Below are positions 1,644 to 20,665 of a DNA stretch of 33,870 nucleotides, one piece after another. Positions within the stretch are counted from its first letter, which is position 1. The number at the start of each line of letters is the position of its first letter. Origin of the DNA: Candidatus Fermentithermobacillaceae bacterium (GTDB lineage Bacteria > Bacillota > Sulfobacillia > Fermentithermobacillales > Fermentithermobacillaceae); NCBI GenBank assembly GCA_012841375.1, contig DUUV01000111.1:1-33870 (forward strand), written 5' to 3'. Below the pieces are notes generated by a model. The model was given only the letters and a program-made list of their open reading frames with translations. It did not search any database and was not told the DNA's origin. A program made the translations under genes and the position numbers.

Positions 1644-2870
1644 ATGGATTACATCAAGCGCGATCTGGAACGGGCAGTGCTCGAGGCCAGCGAGCAATAC
1701 CCCGTCGTATTCGTAAGCGGTCCTCGCCAGGTGGGGAAGACCACTATGCTCCGTCGACTGGCCGATACGTCCGCGCGCACCTATGTGTCCCTGGATGACC
1801 TCACCGCTAGGGCCCTGGCGAAGGATGACCCGGCGATGTTCTTCCAAATATACCGTCCTCCCATCCTGATAGACGAAGCTCAGTATGCGCCGGAGATGTT
1901 CCCATACATCAAGATCCATGCGGATCAGAGACGGCGGCCCGGAGACTTCTGGCTCACCGGTTCACAAGTGCTCCGGTTGATGGAAGGAGTTCGGGAATCC
2001 CTGGCGGGCAGGGTAGCTTTCCTCTCTTTGTCGTCGCTCTCCCAAAGCGAGTTGTACAGCCCGGGAAGTGGAGAACCCTTTGTTCCTGATCTCGACGCCT
2101 TGTTGAAGAGAGAAAAGGTCACGCAGCCCGCAGATACACAGGAGATATTCCGGCGTATTTTCCGCGGCTCAATGCCTGCCGTCGCCAGCGGGAAGTACAA
2201 AGACGTGAGCCTGTTCTACTCCAGCTATCTTAGCACCTATATAGAGCGGGATGTGCGATCCGTGTCCGCGGGCATAGACGAACTGAAGTTCTCAGCCTTT
2301 GTCGTCTCGGTTGCCTCGCGTTGCAGCCAGCTTCTGAACATAGCCGACATCGCCCGCGACGCCGACATCGACCAAGCCACCGCGAAGCGTTGGCTCAAGA
2401 TCCTGGAGACCTTCGGAATAGTGTTCTACCTTCATCCCTATTCGAACAATCAGTTAAAACGAGTAATCAAGGCGCCCAAGCTTTACTTCTTCGACACCGG
2501 CCTGGTCTGCTATTTGGGAAAGTGGAGCAGTCCTGAGACTGCGGAGCGGGGTGCGATGAGCGGGGCGTTGCTCGAGAACTACGTTGTCAGCGAACTTATA
2601 AAGAGCTACCAGAATGCCGCGAGAGTGCCGTTCTTCTACTACTACCGCGATCGCGACGCAAAGGAGATAGACGTCATCATCGAAGCCGACGGTCACCTCA
2701 TGCCAATAGAGGTCAAGAAAACCGCATCACCCGACAGACGGCTCTCAAGAGTGTTCTCGGTACTAGATAGATCACCTATCCCCAGAGGCATGGGCGCGAT
2801 ATTGTGCATGGTCGAAAGGCTGTCCGCCATAGACAGCCGGACCTTGGTGGTTCCTATCAGTCTGATCTAG
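1644..2870 (+). CDS. AAA ATPase with C-terminal DUF4143 domain
   Basis: The 408-residue cytosolic protein has a P-loop GPRQVGKTT (26-34) and a Walker B strand ILIDEAQ (74-80), as in the AAA_14 family. A winged-helix-like middle follows, where IARDADIDQATAKRWLKIL resembles a helix-turn-helix. The C-terminal DUF4143 part contains EIDVIIE and IEVKKT, the D...ExK pattern seen in many of these proteins and recalling PD-(D/E)xK folds. AAAGGA lies 8 nt before the ATG. The family is widespread and often horizontally moved; its function is not established, although toxin-antitoxin and DNA-related roles have been suggested. It stands alone here with no partner gene. Confidence 0.85.
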   Translation: MDYIKRDLERAVLEASEQYPVVFVSGPRQVGKTTMLRRLADTSARTYVSLDDLTARALAKDDPAMFFQIYRPPILIDEAQYAPEMFPYIKIHADQRRRPGDFWLTGSQVLRLMEGVRESLAGRVAFLSLSSLSQSELYSPGSGEPFVPDLDALLKREKVTQPADTQEIFRRIFRGSMPAVASGKYKDVSLFYSSYLSTYIERDVRSVSAGIDELKFSAFVVSVASRCSQLLNIADIARDADIDQATAKRWLKILETFGIVFYLHPYSNNQLKRVIKAPKLYFFDTGLVCYLGKWSSPETAERGAMSGALLENYVVSELIKSYQNAARVPFFYYYRDRDAKEIDVIIEADGHLMPIEVKKTASPDRRLSRVFSVLDRSPIPRGMGAILCMVERLSAIDSRTLVVPISLI

Positions 2871-3422: not shown

Positions 3423-3670
3423 TTTCGGAGATATCCTAGGCGCGGACCGGTGGCTTTTTGGCTTGGGCCCGGTGTACCAGGCTAGACGTGGTGACAGGCA
3501 GATATCCCGGCCAGCAAACGATCATATAACGAGAGTCGCATCGTGGTGAGGTCGCGGTGCGACGCCCCTGCGTTGCTCGAAGGATTTCAGCCGGTGACAT
3601 AGAAGTCACCCTCAGCCAAGAAACTCAGCCGTGAGCGGAGAGGGAGTGAGTCCTTCTGGCAAAGGATGTT
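3423..3670 (+). other. 248-nt non-coding stretch with inverted repeats upstream of the two-gene unit
   Basis: No convincing ORF is present. There is a perfect 6-bp stem GGTGAC/GTCACC with a 6-nt loop (3593-3610), a wider GTCGCA/TGCGAC pair about 55 nt upstream, and a short direct repeat of CTCAGCC after the first stem. It does not match any riboswitch class whose conserved core I can recognise. It may be a leader or an untranslated RNA of the downstream unit. Confidence 0.45.
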
Positions 3671-3799
3671 GTGCAGGTGAAGAACCCTAAGACCAACCGC
3701 TACGTGAAGATCGATCGAGATGCCGGCCGCATCATCTCCCAGAAGAAGAGTCCCGGTCCGTACAAGGGCGTTCCCATCGCTGAAAAGCGCAAAGACTGA
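3671..3799 (+). CDS. small basic protein (42 aa), first gene of a two-gene unit
   Basis: This short gene is easily missed. The frame is closed by a TGA at 3647-3649 and then reads a coherent, charged sequence including KNPKTNRYVKIDRDAGRI and SPGPYKGVPI, up to a TGA at 3797-3799. Start candidates are GTG at 3671 or GTG at 3677. AAGGA at 3662-3666 is 4 nt from the first and 10 nt from the second, so the choice is open. Only one nucleotide separates its stop from the ATG of the next gene, implying translational coupling. The composition (Lys/Arg-rich, no hydrophobic segment) suggests a small soluble or nucleic-acid-binding protein. I do not recognise a named family. Confidence 0.65.
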   Translation: MQVKNPKTNRYVKIDRDAGRIISQKKSPGPYKGVPIAEKRKD

Positions 3800-3800
3800 C

Positions 3801-4511
3801 ATGATCCTGTACGACCCCACCAACGGCGATGTGGTAACCACTCCGACCGAATGCAGGCCGAGGACTTGCTTCTTCATGAGCAAGGTCGGAGACAACGTTC
3901 CGCCCATGGTTCTCGAGGTTAGGAGCCGGCTTGCCGCGCTGCTCGGCGAGATTGGATATTTCCTGATCGACGCCACTGGAGTCACCACAGGTAAGGACTT
4001 CCTTCGAAAGATCTGGGACCTCATTGTCAGCGTGCCCATGGGGATGGCGTTCATCTATAGAAAGATGCCGCCGAGCACCCTCGCCAACGTGTTCTACGAG
4101 ATCGGCCTGATGCAGGCGCTGGGGAAAGATACTCTGGTCATCAAAGAACCCAGAGCTGCGATTCCGTCTGACTTGGTGCGGACCGAGTATGTCCTCTACG
4201 ACGGCAGATTTGATGATCGTATCCGTGCCTTCCTGGGCACTTGTCTCTCAAGCGCCGAGTTTCTTGCCACTGTGGCGGAGCAGATGGAACGCAATCCCTT
4301 GCTGGCCATCGACTACTACCGGCGTGCCTTCCTTCTGACCGGAAATGAAGAGTATTGCTTGAGGACAGATGAGCTCATGAAGAGCGGCGAGATCGGACAG
4401 AGAGCCAAGAACAGTGTTGAGTACCTGGCTGCAGGGTTCAGCCGCTTTACGCAACAGGCTCAGCAAATGAAAGCCATCCGCCAGACAGCCGTCACAAGAT
4501 TGCCTAGGTGA
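3801..4511 (+). CDS. nucleoside deoxyribosyltransferase/TIR-like fold protein with helical C-terminus
   Basis: I place the start at ATG 3801. The open frame extends further upstream, but that part overlaps the 42-aa gene and reads as low-quality Arg/Ser-rich sequence. The 236-residue product starts its core with CFFMSKVGDN (23-32), has LIDATGVTTGKDF (55-67), a hydrophobic strand MGMAFIY (80-86), and NVFYEIGLMQALGKDTLVIK (96-115). The last segment resembles the conserved E-x-G-x-x-x-A-x-G-K region of nucleoside 2-deoxyribosyltransferase-like and TIR-like domains, making E100 the candidate catalytic glutamate. Residues 140-236 are helical, with a TPR-like stretch around NPLLAIDYYRRAF. Members of this fold cleave N-glycosidic bonds (nucleosides, NAD) and several act in immunity. 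No SD is visible, so translation is probably coupled to the upstream small gene. Confidence 0.8.
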   Translation: MILYDPTNGDVVTTPTECRPRTCFFMSKVGDNVPPMVLEVRSRLAALLGEIGYFLIDATGVTTGKDFLRKIWDLIVSVPMGMAFIYRKMPPSTLANVFYEIGLMQALGKDTLVIKEPRAAIPSDLVRTEYVLYDGRFDDRIRAFLGTCLSSAEFLATVAEQMERNPLLAIDYYRRAFLLTGNEEYCLRTDELMKSGEIGQRAKNSVEYLAAGFSRFTQQAQQMKAIRQTAVTRLPR

Positions 4512-11102: not shown

Positions 11103-11215
11103 CGCGTACTGACTTGCACCGACGCGCACCGGCGCGCAGCCAATGAAGAGAAGGCCGGAAAAGCACATAAAGGCCGGACGACGGACGAAAATCCTTGTGA
11201 AAGGTGGAAGATATT

Positions 11216-11530
11216 GTGAGCCAGAAGTGCGGTAAGGGTGACTGGGTCATGATCCACCAGGTCATCCTCGAGCCTCACCAACGCAGCAAAGACGTACCTG
11301 AGGATACGGCAAAAGTGCCGCTGGAGGCCTGGATCAAGGGGTGGGCGGTAGACAGCGCCACAGTCGGCGAGGAAGTTCAAATAACGACCCTGGCCGGGCG
11401 GACCGTGAAGGGACGTCTGGTCGAGGTGAACCCCGGGTTCACCCATACCTACGGGCCCGCGGTGCCCGAGCTTGCCCCGGTAGGGCGGGAGCTCAGGACG
11501 GTTCTCAAGGAGGCGAAGGGACGTGGCTAG
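11216..11530 (+). CDS. ortA: 2-amino-4-oxopentanoate thiolase, small (alpha) subunit
   Basis: OrtA with OrtB cleaves 2-amino-4-oxopentanoate with CoA to acetyl-CoA and D-alanine. I choose GTG 11216 (104 aa), 7 nt after GGTGGA; a GTG four codons upstream has no SD. Family features are GDWVMIHQVILEP, VPEDTAKVPLEAWIKGW and VKGRLVEVNPGFTHTYG. The 3' end overlaps ortB by 8 nt, indicating coupled, probably equimolar synthesis of the two subunits. Confidence 0.93.
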   Translation: MSQKCGKGDWVMIHQVILEPHQRSKDVPEDTAKVPLEAWIKGWAVDSATVGEEVQITTLAGRTVKGRLVEVNPGFTHTYGPAVPELAPVGRELRTVLKEAKGRG

Positions 11531-12947
11531 AGACACCTCATATGAAGCGGTGATGGCCCGGCAGAACGAGATAATGAAGAAGTCTCTGGGCATGGACTAC
11601 GAGCAGTATGTTCGCGGCCCCATAGCCTTTGACTACGAGGCGATGATGTCGGGGACCGGATATACCCTGGAGAAGATACGCGAGATCCAGAGGGAAGTCG
11701 GAGTGGGAGATACGCCGCTATTGGAGCTCCGCAACGTCACCGAACTGGTCAGGCGGAACGCCAAGCCCGGGTACGGCGCCCGGATCCTCGTCAAGGACGA
11801 GTCCTGCAACCCGTCGGGCAGTTTCAAAGACAGAAGGGCGTCGGTTTCCTTGTATCACGCCGCCAAGATGGGCTATCCGGGGGCTTTGGCTGCTACATCG
11901 GGCAACTACGGGGCGGCCGTGGCCTCTCAAGCGGCCATGAGAAACCTCGGGTGCATAGTCGTGCAGGAAGTCTACGACTCAAGGCACGTAGGACAACCCG
12001 AGATCATTGAGAAGACCAGAAAGTGCGAGGCCTTCGGGGCCGAGGTCGTGCAGCTTACCGTCGGACCGGAGCTCTTCTACGTGGCGCTCATGCTTCTTGA
12101 GGAGACCGGCTATTTCAACGCTTCACTCTACAGTTCCTTTGGAGTCGCGGGCATCGAGACTCTCGGGGTCGAGATAGTAGAGCAGTGCCGCCAGAGGTAC
12201 GGCAAGGACCCCGCTTACGTAGTGGTGACTCACGCAGGTGGCGGGAATGTGACCGGGACCGCCAGGGGTCTCCGGAAAGCCGGAGCAGCGAACACTACCG
12301 TGATCGGCGCCAGCGTGGACCTGAGCGGGCTTCACATGGCTTCGGACCGGGACTTCAACCGCAAGTCCTTTACGACCGGCCACACGGGCTTTGGGGTCCC
12401 ATTCGCCACGTGGCCCGACCGTACCGACGTCCCCAAGAACGCCGCTCGACCGCTCAGGTACCTAGATAGATATGTGACCGTCACCCAGGGCGAGGTCTTC
12501 TACGTGACCGAAGTCACCGCCACCGTCGAAGGGCTTGAGCGTGGACCCGCCGGAAACACGTCACTGGCTGCCGCCATACCTTTGGCCGCCGAGCTTCCCG
12601 AGGATGAGATAGTGGTCGTCCAGGAGACCGAGTACACAGGCGCGGGCAAGCATCCCCAGGCTCAGCTCGACTTCGCGAGAAGGAACGGAGTCGAGGTCAG
12701 GCGGGGAGATCCCAAGGAGAACGTCCCGGGGAAGGCCATCGTGATCCCCGAGAGTTTTTCCCAGCTTCACGTCACCGAAATGTCGCTTGACCGCATGAAG
12801 AGGTCCTACATAAGGAACGCCGTCCAGAGGAACGGTCTCACAGAGGTCACCGGGGACGAACTCCAGTTCCTTTCCGAGGATACGAGGCTCTCTCCCGAGG
12901 CCGTCCAAGCGGTGTTGAGCGAGTTTGGGGTGAAAGTGCGTGGATAG
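11523..12947 (+). CDS. ortB: 2-amino-4-oxopentanoate thiolase, PLP-binding (beta) subunit
   Basis: OrtB is the 474-residue PLP subunit of the thiolase and resembles threonine-synthase-like fold-type II enzymes. The PLP lysine is K102 in NPSGSFKDRRAS, and a glycine-rich phosphate loop is seen in THAGGGNVTGTARG. The GTG start at 11523 has AAGGAGG inside the end of ortA. It overlaps ortA by 8 nt and oraS by 8 nt. The reaction ends the pathway, delivering acetyl-CoA (for substrate-level ATP through acetyl phosphate) and D-alanine. Confidence 0.95.
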   Translation: MARDTSYEAVMARQNEIMKKSLGMDYEQYVRGPIAFDYEAMMSGTGYTLEKIREIQREVGVGDTPLLELRNVTELVRRNAKPGYGARILVKDESCNPSGSFKDRRASVSLYHAAKMGYPGALAATSGNYGAAVASQAAMRNLGCIVVQEVYDSRHVGQPEIIEKTRKCEAFGAEVVQLTVGPELFYVALMLLEETGYFNASLYSSFGVAGIETLGVEIVEQCRQRYGKDPAYVVVTHAGGGNVTGTARGLRKAGAANTTVIGASVDLSGLHMASDRDFNRKSFTTGHTGFGVPFATWPDRTDVPKNAARPLRYLDRYVTVTQGEVFYVTEVTATVEGLERGPAGNTSLAAAIPLAAELPEDEIVVVQETEYTGAGKHPQAQLDFARRNGVEVRRGDPKENVPGKAIVIPESFSQLHVTEMSLDRMKRSYIRNAVQRNGLTEVTGDELQFLSEDTRLSPEAVQAVLSEFGVKVRG

Positions 12948-13308
12948 AGACGATCTGCTGGAAAAGCGGCGGCAGGAGATTAAGAGTCTTTCGGACGACG
13001 AGCTTAAAGAGCGGTTCTGGCGCCTTGCCGGCGAAATCGTGAAGCCCCTTTACGACCTGGCATACACGCACACTTCGCCCTCAATCGAAAGATCGGTACT
13101 CCTCAGGATGGGCTTTTCGAGCCTGGAGTCGAAGGCTATCGTCTCGCAAGCCGAAAAGAGACACCTATTGGGGAAAGGCGCCGGGCACCTGGTGCTCAAG
13201 TACGCCGGGATGACCAAGAAGCCCTATCTGGAAGCCGGCAAGGACCTGTGTGTCGACCAGGAGGCTTGGGATGAACTCAAGGCGGCATTTGAAAGGGGGG
13301 CGTCCTGA
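12940..13308 (+). CDS. oraS: D-ornithine 4,5-aminomutase, small subunit
   Basis: OraS is the small subunit of the adenosylcobalamin- and PLP-dependent D-ornithine 4,5-aminomutase, which moves the 5-amino group to C4 to make 2,4-diaminopentanoate. The 122 residues match the family length; KERFWRLAGEIVKPLYDLAYTHTSPSIERSVLLRMGF is the conserved region (broken here across positions 24-60). Start GTG 12940 overlaps ortB by 8 nt, and the TGA overlaps the oraE ATG by one base. The subunit has no cofactor site of its own. Confidence 0.93.
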   Translation: MDRDDLLEKRRQEIKSLSDDELKERFWRLAGEIVKPLYDLAYTHTSPSIERSVLLRMGFSSLESKAIVSQAEKRHLLGKGAGHLVLKYAGMTKKPYLEAGKDLCVDQEAWDELKAAFERGAS

Positions 13309-15584
13309 TGTCGGTGGACCGAACCGAAAAACCGGACCTCTCCAAGAAGCCGGATTCATCAAGGAGAGTCAACCCGTGGGGGAAGCTTGATCCATCCAAG
13401 AAACTGGATGTCCGCGAGATACTCCGGGACCTCCAGAACTACCGCCCCAGGCGGAATGGTTGGACCTGGAGGAAGAGAGTCCCGGACAACGCCGTGGGCC
13501 CCTTCCGGTACAAGGAGACGTCGGAACCGCTGGAGCGTTCGGTACCCCTTCCCGCCGCCAAGTACTTCGGCGGGATCGATCCCCAGCCTGACTACGTCAT
13601 CACCACCGAGATCGCCTCGGGACGCTTTGAAGACGACATAAGGCGGATGAGGATGGCCGCCTGGCACGGCGCGGATCACATGATGGTCATCCGCACCACC
13701 GGGCAGAGCCACATCGACGGCCTCCTGGAGGGGACTCCCGAGGGCGTCGGCGGAATCCCGATCACAAGGAAGCAATTGAGGGCCACCCGAAAGGCCCTGG
13801 ACCTAATTGAGGACGAGGTGGGCCGTCCAATCAATTTCCACTCATACGTTTCCGGCGTAGCGGGACCCGAGATAGCCGTCCTCTTCGCCGAGGAAGGAGT
13901 GAACGGCGCCCACCAGGACCCCCAGTACAACGTCTTGTACAGGAACGTCAACATGCAGCGGTCCTTTGTGGACGCCGCCGTGGCCAAGGCGATAATGGCA
14001 GAATTCGGGATGCTCCAGATAGACGGCGCTCATAACGCCAACGCCACCGCGCGGGAAGCGTGGAAGGTCATGCCCGAGCTCCTGGTTCAGCACGCCATCA
14101 ACTGCGCGTTTTCGCGGGCTGTGGGGATGGACCCGGGCAAGATCGCCCTATCCTCGGTCCCGCCCACGGCGCCTCCGGCTCCGGCCATGTCTTATGACCT
14201 GCCGTACGCCGTCGCCGTGAGATGGCTGTTTTCGGACTACAAGATCAGGGCTCAACAGAACACCAGGTATATCGAATCCGACGCACGGGAAGCCACGGTA
14301 ACCCATACCATCAACTTGGTGCTGTCGAGACTGACTTCCGCCGACGTGCAGAGCACGATCACGCCCGACGAAGGCCGGAACGTCCCTTGGCACTACAACA
14401 ACCTGGCGGCCGTCGACACCGCCAAGCAGGCGCTACTTGCGGTTGACGGGCTCAAAGACATGCTGGAGGTCAGGAAGGATGGTCCCGTCGGGGGGACCGT
14501 GAGGGACCTGGCCGAGCGGGCAGTCCTGTACCTTGAAGAAGTAAAGGAAAAGGGCTATTTCCAAGCCGTGGCGGACGGCATGTTTGTCGACTCGGGTTTC
14601 TATCCCGAGAGGCACGGCGACGGCATCAGGCGGGATCCCAACGGCGGCATCGGTTACGGCAGCATCGTTCTGAGGGAACCCGATTACTTCGCGCCCGTAT
14701 GCAACCACTTCGGGTACCAGGACCCGGCCAGGGTGCGGGAGCGCCCTTGCGATGAGATAGACGGCTGTACCTTTTGCGCTCCCCAGAAGATAGTCTACAT
14801 CGACGAGCTTGACCCCCAGGACAACGTCGAAAACCGGTTGGCTGGAGCGGCCGAAGACATGGGAGAGGGCAATATCAAGCCAGAAGTGCAGTGGGCCGGA
14901 GACGGCTACATAACGCTCACCATGTTCATACCCGAGGCTGAGCGAGTAGCCGAGTATGCTGCCCTGGAGATAGCCAAGCGGCTGAACTTGGAGAACCCTG
15001 AGGTCATCCACAAGGGCATCGCTCATCCGGCAGAAGGGACGCTTGTCGAGGTGAAGGCGGTTGTGCCTTTCGCCATCGCGCGCGATTCTCTCAAGATACC
15101 CGACAAGCCAAGCATCCTCTCTGCCGAGGAGATCAGGGAAGACGTGCAGCGGACGCCCCTTAAGGTCGTGTGCGCCACCGTCGGAGAAGATGAGCACTCG
15201 GTGGGGATGCGGGAGATCATCGACATCAAACACGGCGGCATCGAGGGATTTGGCATAAAGGCGACATACCTGGGGACGTCTGTGCCCGTGGATAAGGTGG
15301 TAAACGCGGCGATCGAGGAAGACGCGGACGCCATCTTGATCTCCACCATCATAAGCCACGCCGATATTCACCGGAAGAACATGGAGCGCCTGGCGCAGCT
15401 TTGTGAGGAGAAGGGCGTCAGGCAGAAGTTCATACTGGTCGGCGGCGGCACCCAGGTAACCAACGACCTGGCCGTTCAGGCCGGGCTGGATGCCGGGTTC
15501 GGACGGGGCACAAAAGGGATTCACGTGGCCTCGTTCCTCGTGAAGAGGCGCAGAGAGCTTCGCGGTACGGAGAGTCCTCCATGA
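13308..15584 (+). CDS. oraE: D-ornithine 4,5-aminomutase, large catalytic subunit
   Basis: The 758-residue subunit has a TIM-barrel that binds substrate and PLP phosphate, and a C-terminal Rossmann domain carrying B12. The base-off cobalamin motif DEHSVG provides H630, and the PLP-lysine is K641 in DIKHGG. Their 11-residue spacing matches what I recall for the Clostridium sticklandii enzyme (H618/K629), so both cofactor sites look intact. A short Lys/Asp/Pro/Ser-rich extension with repeated SKKPD/SKKLD-like units precedes the conserved start near residue 35. Translation is coupled to oraS (TGATG) and to the next gene (ATGA). Confidence 0.96.
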   Translation: MSVDRTEKPDLSKKPDSSRRVNPWGKLDPSKKLDVREILRDLQNYRPRRNGWTWRKRVPDNAVGPFRYKETSEPLERSVPLPAAKYFGGIDPQPDYVITTEIASGRFEDDIRRMRMAAWHGADHMMVIRTTGQSHIDGLLEGTPEGVGGIPITRKQLRATRKALDLIEDEVGRPINFHSYVSGVAGPEIAVLFAEEGVNGAHQDPQYNVLYRNVNMQRSFVDAAVAKAIMAEFGMLQIDGAHNANATAREAWKVMPELLVQHAINCAFSRAVGMDPGKIALSSVPPTAPPAPAMSYDLPYAVAVRWLFSDYKIRAQQNTRYIESDAREATVTHTINLVLSRLTSADVQSTITPDEGRNVPWHYNNLAAVDTAKQALLAVDGLKDMLEVRKDGPVGGTVRDLAERAVLYLEEVKEKGYFQAVADGMFVDSGFYPERHGDGIRRDPNGGIGYGSIVLREPDYFAPVCNHFGYQDPARVRERPCDEIDGCTFCAPQKIVYIDELDPQDNVENRLAGAAEDMGEGNIKPEVQWAGDGYITLTMFIPEAERVAEYAALEIAKRLNLENPEVIHKGIAHPAEGTLVEVKAVVPFAIARDSLKIPDKPSILSAEEIREDVQRTPLKVVCATVGEDEHSVGMREIIDIKHGGIEGFGIKATYLGTSVPVDKVVNAAIEEDADAILISTIISHADIHRKNMERLAQLCEEKGVRQKFILVGGGTQVTNDLAVQAGLDAGFGRGTKGIHVASFLVKRRRELRGTESPP

Positions 15585-17074
15585 GACCGGACGCCAAACC
15601 GGCTGTTGGATCGGGTGCCGGACCAGTTGTCCGACTGGGAGCAGGACCTGGCGCCGAACCGGGTACTGGTCCCAGGCCTGGGGCCAGACCCGGCGAAGGG
15701 CCGGCAGTAAGTCCGGATGTCTTGGTGGCCGAGATAGGCAGCACCACAACCGTAGTCAACGCTTTCAGGCTTGGAGAACACCCCAGATTTCTGGGGCAGG
15801 GTCTGGCGCCTACCACGGTTGACCGGGGCGATGTCATATTGGGCCTTGAGGCTGCCTTGGATGATCTAATGCAGAAGTGCGCGCCGGAATCAGGGGGAAG
15901 ACCGGAACCGTGGGATTCGTCCCTTATGTTGGCTGCTTCCAGCGCCGCGGGCGGCCTCTCCATGACCGTCCACGGTCTCGTCTACGACATGACGGTCAGG
16001 GCCGCCAAAGAAGCAGCGCTGGGGGCCGGCGCGGTGATCAAGTTCATCACCGCCGGAGACATGACCGAGTATGACCTCCGGGAGCTCCGGAGGATAGACC
16101 CGAAAATCATACTCTTGGCCGGAGGCGTGGACTACGGAGAGAGAGACACCGCCATCAGGAACGCCCGGCGGCTCGCGCAAGTCGGGTTGAAGGCCCCGGT
16201 GGTCTATGCCGGCAACATCGCCGCCAGGGCGGAAGTGGCCGATATCCTGGGCCAGGCGGGCATCAGGTTCTACATCGTGGATAATGTGTATCCGAAGGTA
16301 GACGAATTGGTGGTGGAACCCGCCAGAAGGATTATCCAGGACGTGTTCGAAGAACACATCACGAGGGCTCCGGGTATGGACAATCTCCGCCAGATGGTGA
16401 AGGGGACGGTGTTGCCGACTCCCGGGGCGGTGATGGAGGCGTGCAAGTTGCTCCAGCCCGTCCTCGGCGATGTCGTCTGCCTAGATGTCGGAGGCGCCAC
16501 CACCGACGTCCATTCGGTGGCTTCCGGAAGCCCGGAGATACAGGCCATACTGGAAAGCCCTGAGCCCCTGGCCAAGAGGACTGTTGAAGGAGACCTTGGC
16601 ATATACAGGAACGCGGCCAATGTCTACTCGCTCGTGAAGGATCGGGCAGAGAGGGATCTGGGGTTTGACCCGTCGCCGGTGATCGAGGAGTTGAGACCCA
16701 TCCCAGAGACCCCTCAGGAGGTAGCGCTGGTCAGGTATCTTGCGGCTCAAGCCTGCAAGACCGCCCTCTCCAGGCACGCAGGCTCTCTCAAGTTCCTCTA
16801 CGGCCCGTCGGGAAAGCAGACTGTAGCATCTGGCAAGGATCTCACCAGCGTGAATACGATAATCGGCACAGGGGGAGCCCTCACACGGCTCCCCGGCGGC
16901 GAAGGGATGCTCAAACCCCTCGTTGGCCAGGGACCGGGCCGCGAGCTGTACCCGAAGGATGCCCGCATCCTGATAGACACGCACTACATCATGGCGGCAT
17001 GCGGGGTGCTCTCGAGGCAGTTCCCCGAAGAGGCCAGGGAGATCCTTGTGGACGGATTGGAGGTCCGAGAGTGA
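15581..17074 (+). CDS. MutL/GlmL-like ASKHA ATPase, probable aminomutase reactivating factor
   Basis: The 497-residue protein belongs to the GlmL/MutL family found beside B12-dependent aminomutases. Phosphate-binding loops of the actin/Hsp70 fold are seen in VLVAEIGSTTTVVNAF (about 47-62) and LDVGGATTDVHSV. The family is thought to help exchange damaged cobalamin or to act as chaperone of the mutase. Residues about 8-43 are a Gly/Pro/Ala low-complexity segment not usual in the family. The upstream start is supported by the ATGA overlap with oraE; a start nearer the conserved VLVAEIG lacks an SD. It overlaps orr by 4 nt. Confidence 0.88.
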   Translation: MRPDAKPAVGSGAGPVVRLGAGPGAEPGTGPRPGARPGEGPAVSPDVLVAEIGSTTTVVNAFRLGEHPRFLGQGLAPTTVDRGDVILGLEAALDDLMQKCAPESGGRPEPWDSSLMLAASSAAGGLSMTVHGLVYDMTVRAAKEAALGAGAVIKFITAGDMTEYDLRELRRIDPKIILLAGGVDYGERDTAIRNARRLAQVGLKAPVVYAGNIAARAEVADILGQAGIRFYIVDNVYPKVDELVVEPARRIIQDVFEEHITRAPGMDNLRQMVKGTVLPTPGAVMEACKLLQPVLGDVVCLDVGGATTDVHSVASGSPEIQAILESPEPLAKRTVEGDLGIYRNAANVYSLVKDRAERDLGFDPSPVIEELRPIPETPQEVALVRYLAAQACKTALSRHAGSLKFLYGPSGKQTVASGKDLTSVNTIIGTGGALTRLPGGEGMLKPLVGQGPGRELYPKDARILIDTHYIMAACGVLSRQFPEEAREILVDGLEVRE

Positions 17075-18144
17075 GATACCCTTCCATGTCCATTGATGTC
17101 GGCAAACTGGAGCATAACGCCGTCACGGTTTCACGGCTCCTGGCCCGCGCGGGCCTCACGTATGTGGCTGTGAACAAAGCGACGTGCGGCCACCCGGACG
17201 TGGCCAAGGCGCTATTGGCAGGCAATCCCCTGGGTTTGGCCGATTCACGCGTTGAGAACCTGGCGCGGCTAAGGGAGAGCGGGTATCAAGGCGAGACCGT
17301 CCTTCTCCGTGCGCCTGCTCCGGCCAGGTGTGCCGAGGCGGTCGAGGTTGCCGACACGAGCCTCATCTCAGATCCGGGCATCGCCAGGGCTTTGGGAGAG
17401 GCGGCGGTGAGATGCGGTAAGAAGCACAATGTGATCCTCATGGTCGACATAGGAGACCGGCGTGAAGGGGTGCTCCCTGACGAAGCTCCGGAGACCGCGA
17501 GGGCGATGGCTTCGATCCCGGGCATCAGGCTCATCGGGATAGGGACTAATCTTGCCTGCTACGGGGCGATCATCCCCACCCGAGAAAAGATGGAGACGCT
17601 TCTCGAGATAAAGGACCGCGTCGAAAAGACCGTAGGGTTTAGCCTAGAGCGGGTCTCCGGGGGCAACTCGGCCAACATCCCCTTGGTGATGGAAGGACAG
17701 ATGCCCCGGGGAATAACCGAACTCAGGCTGGGCGAAAGCGTGATCTTGGGTACCGAAGCCGTCGAGAGAACACTGATCCCGGGCTGTCACAACGACGCCT
17801 TCCTGGCTCACGCAGAGGTGATCGAGGTCATCAGAAAGCCGTCTCTCCCGTCCGGGAAGATAGGCCAGGACGCCTTCGGGGCCGTGCCCATGTTTGTGGA
17901 CAGGGGCAACCGGATGAGGGCCATCCTAGCCATCGGAAGGCAGGATGTGGACCCCGACGGCCTCACGCCGTTGGATGAAGGCGTGACGGTTATCGGGGCT
18001 TCTTCGGACCACCTTATCTGCGACGTGGAGGACGCGGGCGACCGGGTGAAGGTAGGTACCGTGTTGTCTTTCATCCCTAACTACAGCGCGCTCTTAAGGT
18101 TGGCGACCTCGCCTTATGTTGAGAAAGTGGTGAAGAAGCCGTGA
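17071..18144 (+). CDS. orr: ornithine racemase (alanine-racemase-like, PLP)
   Basis: Orr converts L-ornithine to the D-ornithine used by OraSE. The 357-residue fold-type III PLP enzyme has its cofactor lysine at K36 in VNKATCGHP, and a downstream GGNSANIP segment expected to hold the phosphate. Start GTG 17071 forms a GTGA overlap with the preceding gene, with GGAGG 8 nt upstream; longer starts would lie deeper in the previous gene. A 4-nt GTGA overlap also joins it to the next gene. Amino-acid specificity (ornithine rather than alanine) is inferred from the cluster and family resemblance. Confidence 0.92.
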   Translation: MRYPSMSIDVGKLEHNAVTVSRLLARAGLTYVAVNKATCGHPDVAKALLAGNPLGLADSRVENLARLRESGYQGETVLLRAPAPARCAEAVEVADTSLISDPGIARALGEAAVRCGKKHNVILMVDIGDRREGVLPDEAPETARAMASIPGIRLIGIGTNLACYGAIIPTREKMETLLEIKDRVEKTVGFSLERVSGGNSANIPLVMEGQMPRGITELRLGESVILGTEAVERTLIPGCHNDAFLAHAEVIEVIRKPSLPSGKIGQDAFGAVPMFVDRGNRMRAILAIGRQDVDPDGLTPLDEGVTVIGASSDHLICDVEDAGDRVKVGTVLSFIPNYSALLRLATSPYVEKVVKKP

Positions 18145-19544
18145 AATCAGGAGTGGTCCTGGCAGGACTATCGCCCCACCCTCCCATCATCATCCCTGAA
18201 GTGGGGAGGGGCGAAGAGCGAAACGCGTCGTCTACGGTCCGGGCTATGGAATCCCTGGGGAAGCGCTTCGCGTCGGCGGACTATGACAGCCTTGTGATCA
18301 TCACTCCCCACGGACTCGTGCTTCGCGACGCCGTCTCCATAAGGGGAGACGCGACGATGGAGGGCGATTTCGGGGGATTTGGCGCACGACGGGTGACTTT
18401 TGGCGTAAGGAACGACCTTGAGCTTGTGAGGGAGATAGCGGCCGCGTCAAAGGAAGACGGGTTCACCACAGTTCTTTTGGACCGCCGGACAATGCGCAGC
18501 TACACGGTTGACAGTCGACTGGACCACGGGTGTCTGGTGCCTCTTTACTACATGGTGAAGCACGGCTTCTCCAGACCGGTTGTGGTTGTGAACATCGGTT
18601 ACCTGCCCGTCCTGGACCTTTACCGCTACGGTATGGCGATCTCGCGGGCATCCGAACGGGTAGGCCGGCGCGTCGCCGTGCTTGCGTCGGGCGACCTCTC
18701 CCACCGGCTCACGCCCGACGCTCCCGCCGGCTATAACCCGAAAGGAAAACTCTTTGACGAGAGCCTTATGGGCCATCTGAGGGACTTCGATCCTAAAGGG
18801 ATACTGGGCATTCCCGAAGATCTTCTTCAAGACGCAGGCGAATGCGGCATGAGGCCGGTGGCCATGATGTTGGGTTCCATCGACAACTGCCGCGTTCGGA
18901 GTGAAGTGCTCTCCTACGAGGGCCCGTTCGGCGTAGGCTATGGAGTCGCCCTCATCCACCCGGAAGGTCAAGGCGAGTCTCGACTGAAGGAGATCCTGGG
19001 GGACCGTGAACGGCGTCTCCAGGATGCCAGGGAGAACGAGTCGTACCCGGTCAGGCTGGCCAGAACCGCGGTCGAGCATTACGTGGGTACCCGAAAGACC
19101 TTGGATCCACCCGGTGATGTGCCGGAACAGTTCCGGTCTCCCGCGGGCGTGTTTGTGTCCATACATGAAGACGGTATGCTCCGCGGATGCATCGGGACCA
19201 TTGGGCCTACATGTCCTACTGCGGCCCAAGAGATAATACAGAGCGCGATTTCAGCCGCCACCGGCGACCCCAGATTCCGGGAAGTAACCGCCGGAGAACT
19301 GCCTTTCCTGGACTATTCCGTGGATGTGCTCTCAGACCCCCAGGAGATCTCCGGTGAGGAAGACTTGGACCCGAAGGTCTACGGAGTGATCGTGGAAAGG
19401 GGCGCCCGCAGGGGCTTGCTCCTCCCCGATCTTCCAGGCATCGATTCGGCCAGGGAGCAAGTAGAGATCGCCAAGAGGAAAGCAGGTATAAGGCCTTCCG
19501 AGGAAGTGCGGCTCTATAGATTTACGGTGACAAGATATCACTGA
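18141..19544 (+). CDS. fused AmmeMemoRadiSam system proteins B and A (MEMO1-AMMECR1)
   Basis: The 467-residue protein fuses two domains. Residues about 1-270 are MEMO1-like, related to extradiol dioxygenase LigB folds, with GLSPHPPII, ITPHG, DHGCLVPLYY and SGDLSHRL holding candidate metal-binding His/Asp. Residues about 290-467 are AMMECR1, with the hallmark LRGCIGT and LPFLDYSVDVLS. The triad MEMO1/AMMECR1/radical SAM recurs across bacteria and archaea, but its biochemical role is not established. The GTG start overlaps orr by 4 nt (GTGA), placing it in the ornithine operon. That coupling is strong contextual evidence but not proof of a role in ornithine metabolism. Confidence 0.9.
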   Translation: MKSGVVLAGLSPHPPIIIPEVGRGEERNASSTVRAMESLGKRFASADYDSLVIITPHGLVLRDAVSIRGDATMEGDFGGFGARRVTFGVRNDLELVREIAAASKEDGFTTVLLDRRTMRSYTVDSRLDHGCLVPLYYMVKHGFSRPVVVVNIGYLPVLDLYRYGMAISRASERVGRRVAVLASGDLSHRLTPDAPAGYNPKGKLFDESLMGHLRDFDPKGILGIPEDLLQDAGECGMRPVAMMLGSIDNCRVRSEVLSYEGPFGVGYGVALIHPEGQGESRLKEILGDRERRLQDARENESYPVRLARTAVEHYVGTRKTLDPPGDVPEQFRSPAGVFVSIHEDGMLRGCIGTIGPTCPTAAQEIIQSAISAATGDPRFREVTAGELPFLDYSVDVLSDPQEISGEEDLDPKVYGVIVERGARRGLLLPDLPGIDSAREQVEIAKRKAGIRPSEEVRLYRFTVTRYH

Positions 19545-19639
19545 CACGAAAACCCGGCCGACTCTTAGGAGATCTGCAGGGTGGCATCACCGGCGGCCGG
19601 ATGTCACCGGTCCGGCGAGACATCCCGGGGGGCGACGTG

Positions 19640-20665
19640 GTGACTGAGATGCTGGGAAAAGCCAAGTTTTGGGAGCCTGCGGAACAGGGCAAGGTGAGGT
19701 GCGGCCTGTGTCCCCATTCGTGCCTGGTCCCGGCTGGCAAAACGGGGATATGCCGGGTGAGGGAGAACAGGGGCGGGACTCTGTACGCGCTGAACTACAA
19801 CCTGGCTACCTCGCTGGCACTGGACCCGGTAGAGAAAAAGCCCCTTTACCACGTGCATCCCGGCGGGTATCTCCTGTCGGCGGGCACCTTTGGATGTAAT
19901 TTCAGGTGCCGGTTCTGCCAAAACTGGCAGATCTCACAGGACAGACCCAGGACGGTGGCGATCACCGCCGGAGAGCTGGTTGAGAGTGCCCTCGCCCAAA
20001 GAAAAAGGTACCCTGCCCTGGTGGGCATGGCCTATACCTACAACGAGCCAACCGTGTGGATTGAGTTCGTACTGGAGGCCGCCGCCCGCGCCAAAGAAGA
20101 GGGCCTGGTGAACGCGCTCGTGACCAACGGGTACATCTCCCGGCCTGCGCTCAGGGAAGTCCTTCAGTCTGTAGATGCCCTCAATATTGACGTGAAAGCC
20201 TGGAACGAAGACTTCTACCGGAGGCTCACCGGCGGGAGGCTCAAGCCCGTCCTGGAGACGGTCGAGGAATCGCTGAAGCATGCATGGGTGGAGGTCACTT
20301 ACCTGGTCATCCCCGGCGAAAACGACTCTCAGGAGGAGGTTGCCGCCCTCGCGCGCCATCTGGCGTCGCTCAGTCCGTCAGTGCCGGTGCACCTGTCCAG
20401 GTTTTTCCCCAACTACCGCATGGGCGGCGAGCCTACGCCTCTTGAGACATTGGAGCGGCTGAGGGATGTCTGCAGGGAGCACCTCCACCATGTCTACATA
20501 GGGAATGCTGCCAGACCGGGGTACGCGGATACACCCTGTCCGGAGTGCGGCACCACGCTTCTTAAGCGTGACGGTCTGGCTCTGGAAAGGGCGTTTCTCA
20601 CGCCCGACGGCGACTGCCCCGAATGCGGACGGCCCCTTGAGATGCTGGGTCAGGTTTGGCTGTAG
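19640..20665 (+). CDS. AmmeMemoRadiSam system radical SAM enzyme
   Basis: The 341-residue enzyme carries the radical SAM motif CNFRCRFC (C86, C90, C93), plus an N-terminal CGLCPHSC and two C-terminal CPECG sites that likely bind zinc or auxiliary iron-sulfur. It resembles PflA-type activases. I choose GTG 19640, 7 nt after a run of six G. GTG 19637 and ATG 19601 are alternatives, the latter without SD. It follows the MEMO1-AMMECR1 gene after 95 nt. The substrate is unknown. It is the last gene of the cluster, with a convergent gene beginning 52 nt beyond its stop. Confidence 0.9.
   Translation: MTEMLGKAKFWEPAEQGKVRCGLCPHSCLVPAGKTGICRVRENRGGTLYALNYNLATSLALDPVEKKPLYHVHPGGYLLSAGTFGCNFRCRFCQNWQISQDRPRTVAITAGELVESALAQRKRYPALVGMAYTYNEPTVWIEFVLEAAARAKEEGLVNALVTNGYISRPALREVLQSVDALNIDVKAWNEDFYRRLTGGRLKPVLETVEESLKHAWVEVTYLVIPGENDSQEEVAALARHLASLSPSVPVHLSRFFPNYRMGGEPTPLETLERLRDVCREHLHHVYIGNAARPGYADTPCPECGTTLLKRDGLALERAFLTPDGDCPECGRPLEMLGQVWL

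Follow-up and report, generated by a model that had tools for sequence, protein, structure and literature searches.

Portal and capsid proteins of phages are known triggers of TIR NADases. SpbK and Swarozyc are triggered by the phage portal (PMC11984713, PMC12847820, PMC13174449), and staphylococcal Thoeris is triggered by the capsid (PMC11312562). Phage 3T codes for a protein, Nip, that binds the TIR domain of SpbK and blocks it, which sets a precedent for a phage protein that binds and blocks a TIR NADase (PMC11984713). In addition to the described systems, PADLOC lists candidate defence genes under the label PDC (PMC11514479).

The window considered here (the whole stretch of 33,870 nucleotides that was analysed, contig C121 of the 2.37 Mb genome G000) carries a two-gene unit in which a small gene precedes a larger one coding for a protein that resembles TIR domains and nucleoside deoxyribosyltransferases (NDT). 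Swarozyc (DUF4062) and SpbK, both portal-activated NADases, are likewise TIR/NDT-related single effectors with a catalytic Glu. Unlike them, the large protein of the window has no match to DUF4062 or TIR in Pfam, has another C-terminal region and is accompanied by a small coupled partner. As regards the CBASS TIR effectors, the large protein does not match their model, and no CD-NTase was found among the neighbouring genes of the window that were tested. The proteins of phrog_3634 and of the PADLOC CBASS "Effector TIR" model PDLC00733 are homologous to it over positions 20–130 and have in common with it the NVFYE-type Glu and an SD/FD motif. However, only distant relatives match PDLC00733, and the large protein itself does not; compared with these relatives it lacks the "AD" Asp, carries both an RPRTCF block at its N-terminus and inserted residues ahead of NVFYE, and has a coupled small gene, which they do not have.

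The layout is also reminiscent of type II toxin-antitoxin modules: the small gene comes first, the two genes are coupled in a conserved order, the larger one is possibly toxic, and the antitoxin-like gene outlives its partner. In contrast to such modules, no DNA-binding domain is recognised in the small protein. Nip, with 279 aa and SH3-like and HU-like domains, is unlike the small protein in size and described architecture (PMC11984713). The closest relatives of the small protein are found in PDC-S38 and phrog_12550; it matches both, but as a short form that is devoid of the MAKNTGKGYRRGAV start and has a TIR-like gene coupled to it. The original prediction, made from the DNA alone, stated that no described system with this pairing was known. 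That holds in the searchable literature, in which no mention of PDC-S38 was found, whereas the small protein turned out to be a PADLOC candidate already.

Table 1. Features of the two-gene unit (window coordinates).
Feature	Position	Strand	Description
5' leader	3589..3655	+	partly conserved across 3 genomes of the genus (upstream alignment of G000, G001, G002)
Small gene	3656..3799	+	47 aa, probable CTG start; stop TGA 3797–3799; short-form PDC-S38-family protein
Large gene	3801..4511	+	236 aa, TIR/NDT-like protein, 1 base past the end of the small gene
Rossmann-like TIR/NDT core, residues 16–138	3846..4214	+	from hhalign and secondary structure of the predicted model
NVFYE motif, candidate catalytic Glu100 (codon 4098–4100)	4086..4100	+	
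C-terminal helical region, residues 139–236	4215..4508	+	secondary structure of the model, good to about residue 200

The Two-Gene Unit

The original prediction described a 42-aa gene ending one nucleotide before a 236-aa gene. Both open reading frames and the 1-base gap are present, but the small gene most likely begins upstream of the GTG at 3671 that gives 42 aa. The homologous start codon was compared across eight copies of the small gene and is TTG (n = 4), ATG (n = 2) or CTG (n = 2, the window and its closest relative). Genome G002 has GTA at the position that matches GTG 3671, and the residues encoded 5' of 3671 are conserved. Furthermore, the 3' part of the leader is a strong ribosome-binding site, GGAGAGGGAG (3636–3645), 10 bases ahead of CTG 3656. 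For these reasons CTG 3656 was chosen; GTG 3671 was rejected on the start-codon comparison and the GTA of G002. Because CTG starts are uncommon, the placement is one that we infer. A sigma-70-like promoter was looked for in the leader and none was found; a leader hairpin judged by eye was dropped, as it showed no conservation.

The two-gene unit is real, beyond chance, since dN/dS is low and all relatives found have the pair in this order and coupled. Selection is purifying on both genes: within the genus, dN/dS (Nei-Gojobori) is 0.03–0.06 for the small gene and 0.11–0.16 for the large one. The small open reading frame was also considered as a mere leader peptide, and this was rejected, its amino-acid sequence being conserved out to phage contigs and its dN/dS being about 0.05.

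Distribution, Inheritance and Surroundings

Six genomes were found to carry a homologue of the large protein: G000, G001, G002, G007, G043 and G358, the last of which belongs to another class of the same phylum and has an assembly gap inside the gene. The distribution is patchy, with the large gene in three of the four genomes of the genus and in few outside it. Three further matches of the large-protein profile search were discounted as chance, two because they hit an oxidoreductase and a DHH/CBS protein (L032 and L035) and one, L034, because it is weak and comes from the genus of L035. The small gene lies directly upstream of the large one in 6/6 genomes from two classes, with an overlap of a few bases or a 1-base gap, which bears out the idea that it always precedes its larger partner. 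It is likewise conserved in the sense first proposed, being kept in all relatives with the large gene; among the genomes with large-gene homologues none was found to carry the large gene without the small one.

The losses are asymmetric in two genomes, G216 and G058, in which the large gene is deleted in place, leaving its start codon, while the small gene is intact. G216 additionally keeps a short piece of the end of the large gene. The deletions are located at L041 4988–5280 and L046 6260–6450, where the residual start codon overlaps the intact small gene. In G068 both genes are decayed, and in G451 the small gene is truncated. A small gene that is kept and a large gene that is never alone are expected if the small protein restrains the large one, the retention pattern being based on two genomes.

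The large protein of the window is 86% identical to that of G001 and 80% identical to that of G002, and the flanking glyoxalase, glutaredoxin-like, methyltransferase and DUF503-type genes show a similar identity of 82–86%. The divergence of the pair is thus that of its chromosomal neighbours, which argues for vertical inheritance in the genus with no recent mobile insertion. The clustering of such pairs in defence islands, envisaged in the original prediction, is not what is seen here: in the window's genus the pair diverges at the rate of its neighbours, and no known defence genes were recognised around the window unit. The neighbours are an AAA_14/DUF4143 gene, the glyoxalase, glutaredoxin-like and methyltransferase genes, and then ribosomal genes. 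PADLOC scoring of these neighbours recognised no established defence system beside the unit, only a PDC-S01 candidate and the methyltransferase, which cross-matches mad2.

Other genes of the region may be mentioned in their own right. The AAA_14/DUF4143 ATPase gene upstream of the pair (window 1644–2870) is the PDC-S01 candidate (E = 7.6e-107). In G002 only, a NERD-UvrD helicase gene (L048 2132–3925) is located directly upstream of the pair and matches PADLOC RTasNERD-Hel. Judging by eye, window 11204–18144 resembles a D-ornithine aminomutase pathway cluster in which one gene is reactivase-like and another racemase-like, and window 18141–20665 resembles an AmmeMemoRadiSam pair.

Fold and Relatives of the Large Protein

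The large protein has no match in Pfam, NCBIfam or PADLOC. This includes Pfam PF05014 (nucleoside deoxyribosyltransferase), which some distant relatives match weakly. A PDB sequence search gave chance matches only, tblastn against plasmids and phages gave weak domain-level relatives only, and no homologue was found in viral contigs. With a profile of five relatives, distant proteins come to light in Streptococcus prophages and in other genomes of the phylum. The PADLOC CBASS TIR-effector model is matched by all of those that were tested (6/6). Residues 16–138 align with the distant TIR-like set in hhalign with a probability of 98.4% and E = 5.4e-15, and family members match phrog_3634, a Streptococcus prophage family, with E = 2e-6 to 2e-5. 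AlphaFold2 predicts a Rossmann-like core and a helical C-terminal part with a mean pLDDT of 69.8, the core being mostly at 60–90 by block. With this moderate-confidence model, the best Foldseek matches are TIR-STING, NDT, DNPH1/Rcl, the CMP N-glycosidase BcmB and SARM1 (probability of about 1, E of about 2e-3). The predicted TIR/NDT-type fold is therefore well supported by Foldseek, hhalign and the homologues that match the TIR-effector model, in agreement with the original prediction. In the C-terminal region (residues 139–236) no domain was recognised and no Pfam match was found.

Since NDT, DNPH1 and CMP-glycosidase structures score as high as TIR domains, the large protein might be a housekeeping nucleoside or nucleotide deoxyribosyltransferase or hydrolase of salvage metabolism with no connection to phages, and vertical inheritance alongside chromosomal neighbours would suit such an enzyme. 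We regard this as quite improbable: the relatives match the TIR-effector model and a prophage family and not the Pfam family of salvage enzymes, and the occurrence of the gene is patchy.

The segment NVFYEIGLMQALGK that had been singled out is present in the large protein, and its Glu is indeed residue 100, which is invariant in 10/10 aligned sequences and has the position of a catalytic Glu, where the helix that comes after the NVFYE loop begins. The family likewise shows no variation at Asn96 or in the NVF(Y/F)E block. The Asp of the "iADxT" motif is found in all six distant relatives; the close family has Phe, Ile or Val at that column and five residues inserted ahead of NVFYE, so that activity or substrate may differ. 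The loss of this Asp beside the active-site loop, together with the insertion, could even mean that the large protein no longer catalyses anything and serves as a TIR/NDT scaffold. This appears highly improbable in view of the invariant Glu100, Asn96 and NVF(Y/F)E block and the low dN/dS.

The Small Protein and the PDC-S38 Family

The small protein matches PADLOC PDC-S38 with E = 3.2e-12 over model positions 21–53 of 57 and phrog_12550 with E = 8.9e-8. The N-terminal 20 positions of PDC-S38 are missing, and it is therefore called a short form. It has no match in Pfam or NCBIfam. AlphaFold2 predicts a three-stranded beta meander (mean pLDDT 87.8), for which the fold search gave no credible PDB match. 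Full-length PDC-S38 genes reside on plasmids and temperate phages next to WYL regulators, HTH/ImmA pairs or phage repressors, and AbiTii, PD-(D/E)XK nuclease, nucleotidyltransferase or TIR/SIR2 genes also occur near them.

On Klebsiella, Serratia and Sinorhizobium plasmids (L054, L058, L059, L060) full-length PDC-S38 genes are divergent from genes of WYL-domain regulators, and varied nuclease or nucleotidyltransferase genes lie downstream. The window's genome has a second, full-length PDC-S38 gene (G000:C151:4258–4419; locus L010, 1462–1665), divergent from HTH and ImmA-like peptidase genes that match the PADLOC candidates PDC-M69A and PDC-M69B.

PDC-S38 proteins frequently have no adjoining TIR-like gene, and the small protein may thus have a role of its own. 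It could be an independent accessory, for example, a nucleic-acid-binding or phage-interfering protein, that is co-expressed with the effector and does not touch it, with the effector sensing infection through its C-terminal helical region. The family occurs beside many different genes and often alone, the small gene stays intact where the large one is lost, and the small protein, which is basic, is the better conserved of the two, all of which would fit. We nevertheless judge such independence somewhat unlikely, since every bacterial unit of the short-form clade is coupled and no large gene turned up without the small one.

Short-Form Copies in Phages

The partner's family is tied to phage head modules, which is an unexpected link. 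The short PDC-S38 form is found in uncultivated phage contigs in versions about 50–70% identical. It follows the portal gene immediately in L090/L091 and one gene later in L070 and L088, separates the small-terminase gene from the large-terminase gene in L072 and L074, is at most about 3.5 kb from portal or terminase in L073, L093, L094 and L095, and is located elsewhere in the contig in L069 and L071. The terminase calls in L095 and L074 and the small-terminase call in L072 are readings of the sequence by eye; the remaining large-terminase and portal genes were confirmed with PHROGs. In L092, too, a short PDC-S38-like gene is part of the head/packaging module and adjoins portal or terminase. 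No homologue of the large gene was found in the short-form phage contigs.

The copies beside the portal could be counter-defence, bait or unrelated cargo. One reading is that the small protein is not a restraint and serves as bait or sensor: as a host copy of a protein of the phage head/packaging module, it would let the effector recognise assembling heads or would be displaced by the phage copy. Both the position of phage versions in several distinct viral contigs, next to genes for portal, terminase or head morphogenesis, and the action of portal and capsid as triggers point in this direction. On the other hand, the phage protein could be a virion component or a cargo gene, and further phage PDC-S38 copies sit in early, lysis or lysogeny regions; on balance, a bait or sensor is improbable.

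Proposed Mechanism and Its Significance

As a tentative proposal, which we hold to be somewhat less than an even chance, the pair is a translationally coupled unit in which a TIR/NDT-like N-glycosidase is gated by its 47-aa PDC-S38 partner and triggered by phage infection. The large protein would be an N-glycosidase with Glu100 as the catalytic residue and, most likely, NAD+ or a related nucleotide as substrate. The small protein, translated just ahead of it from the same message, would bind the enzyme and hold it silent or triggerable. Phage infection, perhaps through a head/packaging component or the phage copy of the small protein, would shift the state of the enzyme, and the enzyme would deplete its substrate so that growth stops. 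We infer the enzyme activity, the substrate, the physical binding, the gating and the anti-phage role. The original prediction is borne out in part: its fold and its conserved partner hold, and a role in defence and the small protein as inhibitor, antitoxin or adaptor are candidate functions.

Gating of the enzyme by its small partner is the most economical account because coupling puts the small protein first, losses spare the small gene, and the phage-defence members of the fold must stay off until triggered. It is favoured by the 6/6 pairing, purifying selection, the TIR/NDT homology and the invariant Glu. It is also favoured by the status of PDC-S38 as a PADLOC defence candidate whose longer members lie near regulators and AbiTii, nuclease or nucleotidyltransferase genes, and by the precedent of TIR NADases for which portal or capsid is the trigger and a phage protein the inhibitor. 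The proposal is weakened by the moderate confidence of the large-protein model and its Foldseek E values, by vertical inheritance in the genus and by the scoring of the neighbours, in which no established defence system was recognised.

A broader reading, which we consider unlikely, is that the short PDC-S38 protein acts on TIR/NDT-like effectors as a regulator or bait that is shared and transferable: bacteria would couple it to an effector for silencing, and phages would carry it in head/packaging modules as counter-defence or as a sensed component.

PDC-S38 is a widespread small family of plasmids, temperate phages and chromosomes, and the pair gives it the first fixed enzyme-like partner in the material searched, which makes the role of PDC-S38 directly testable. 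If the small protein does gate a TIR-like effector, the phage copies that adjoin portal or terminase would mean that a gene of the head module is involved in setting off TIR immunity or in blocking it.
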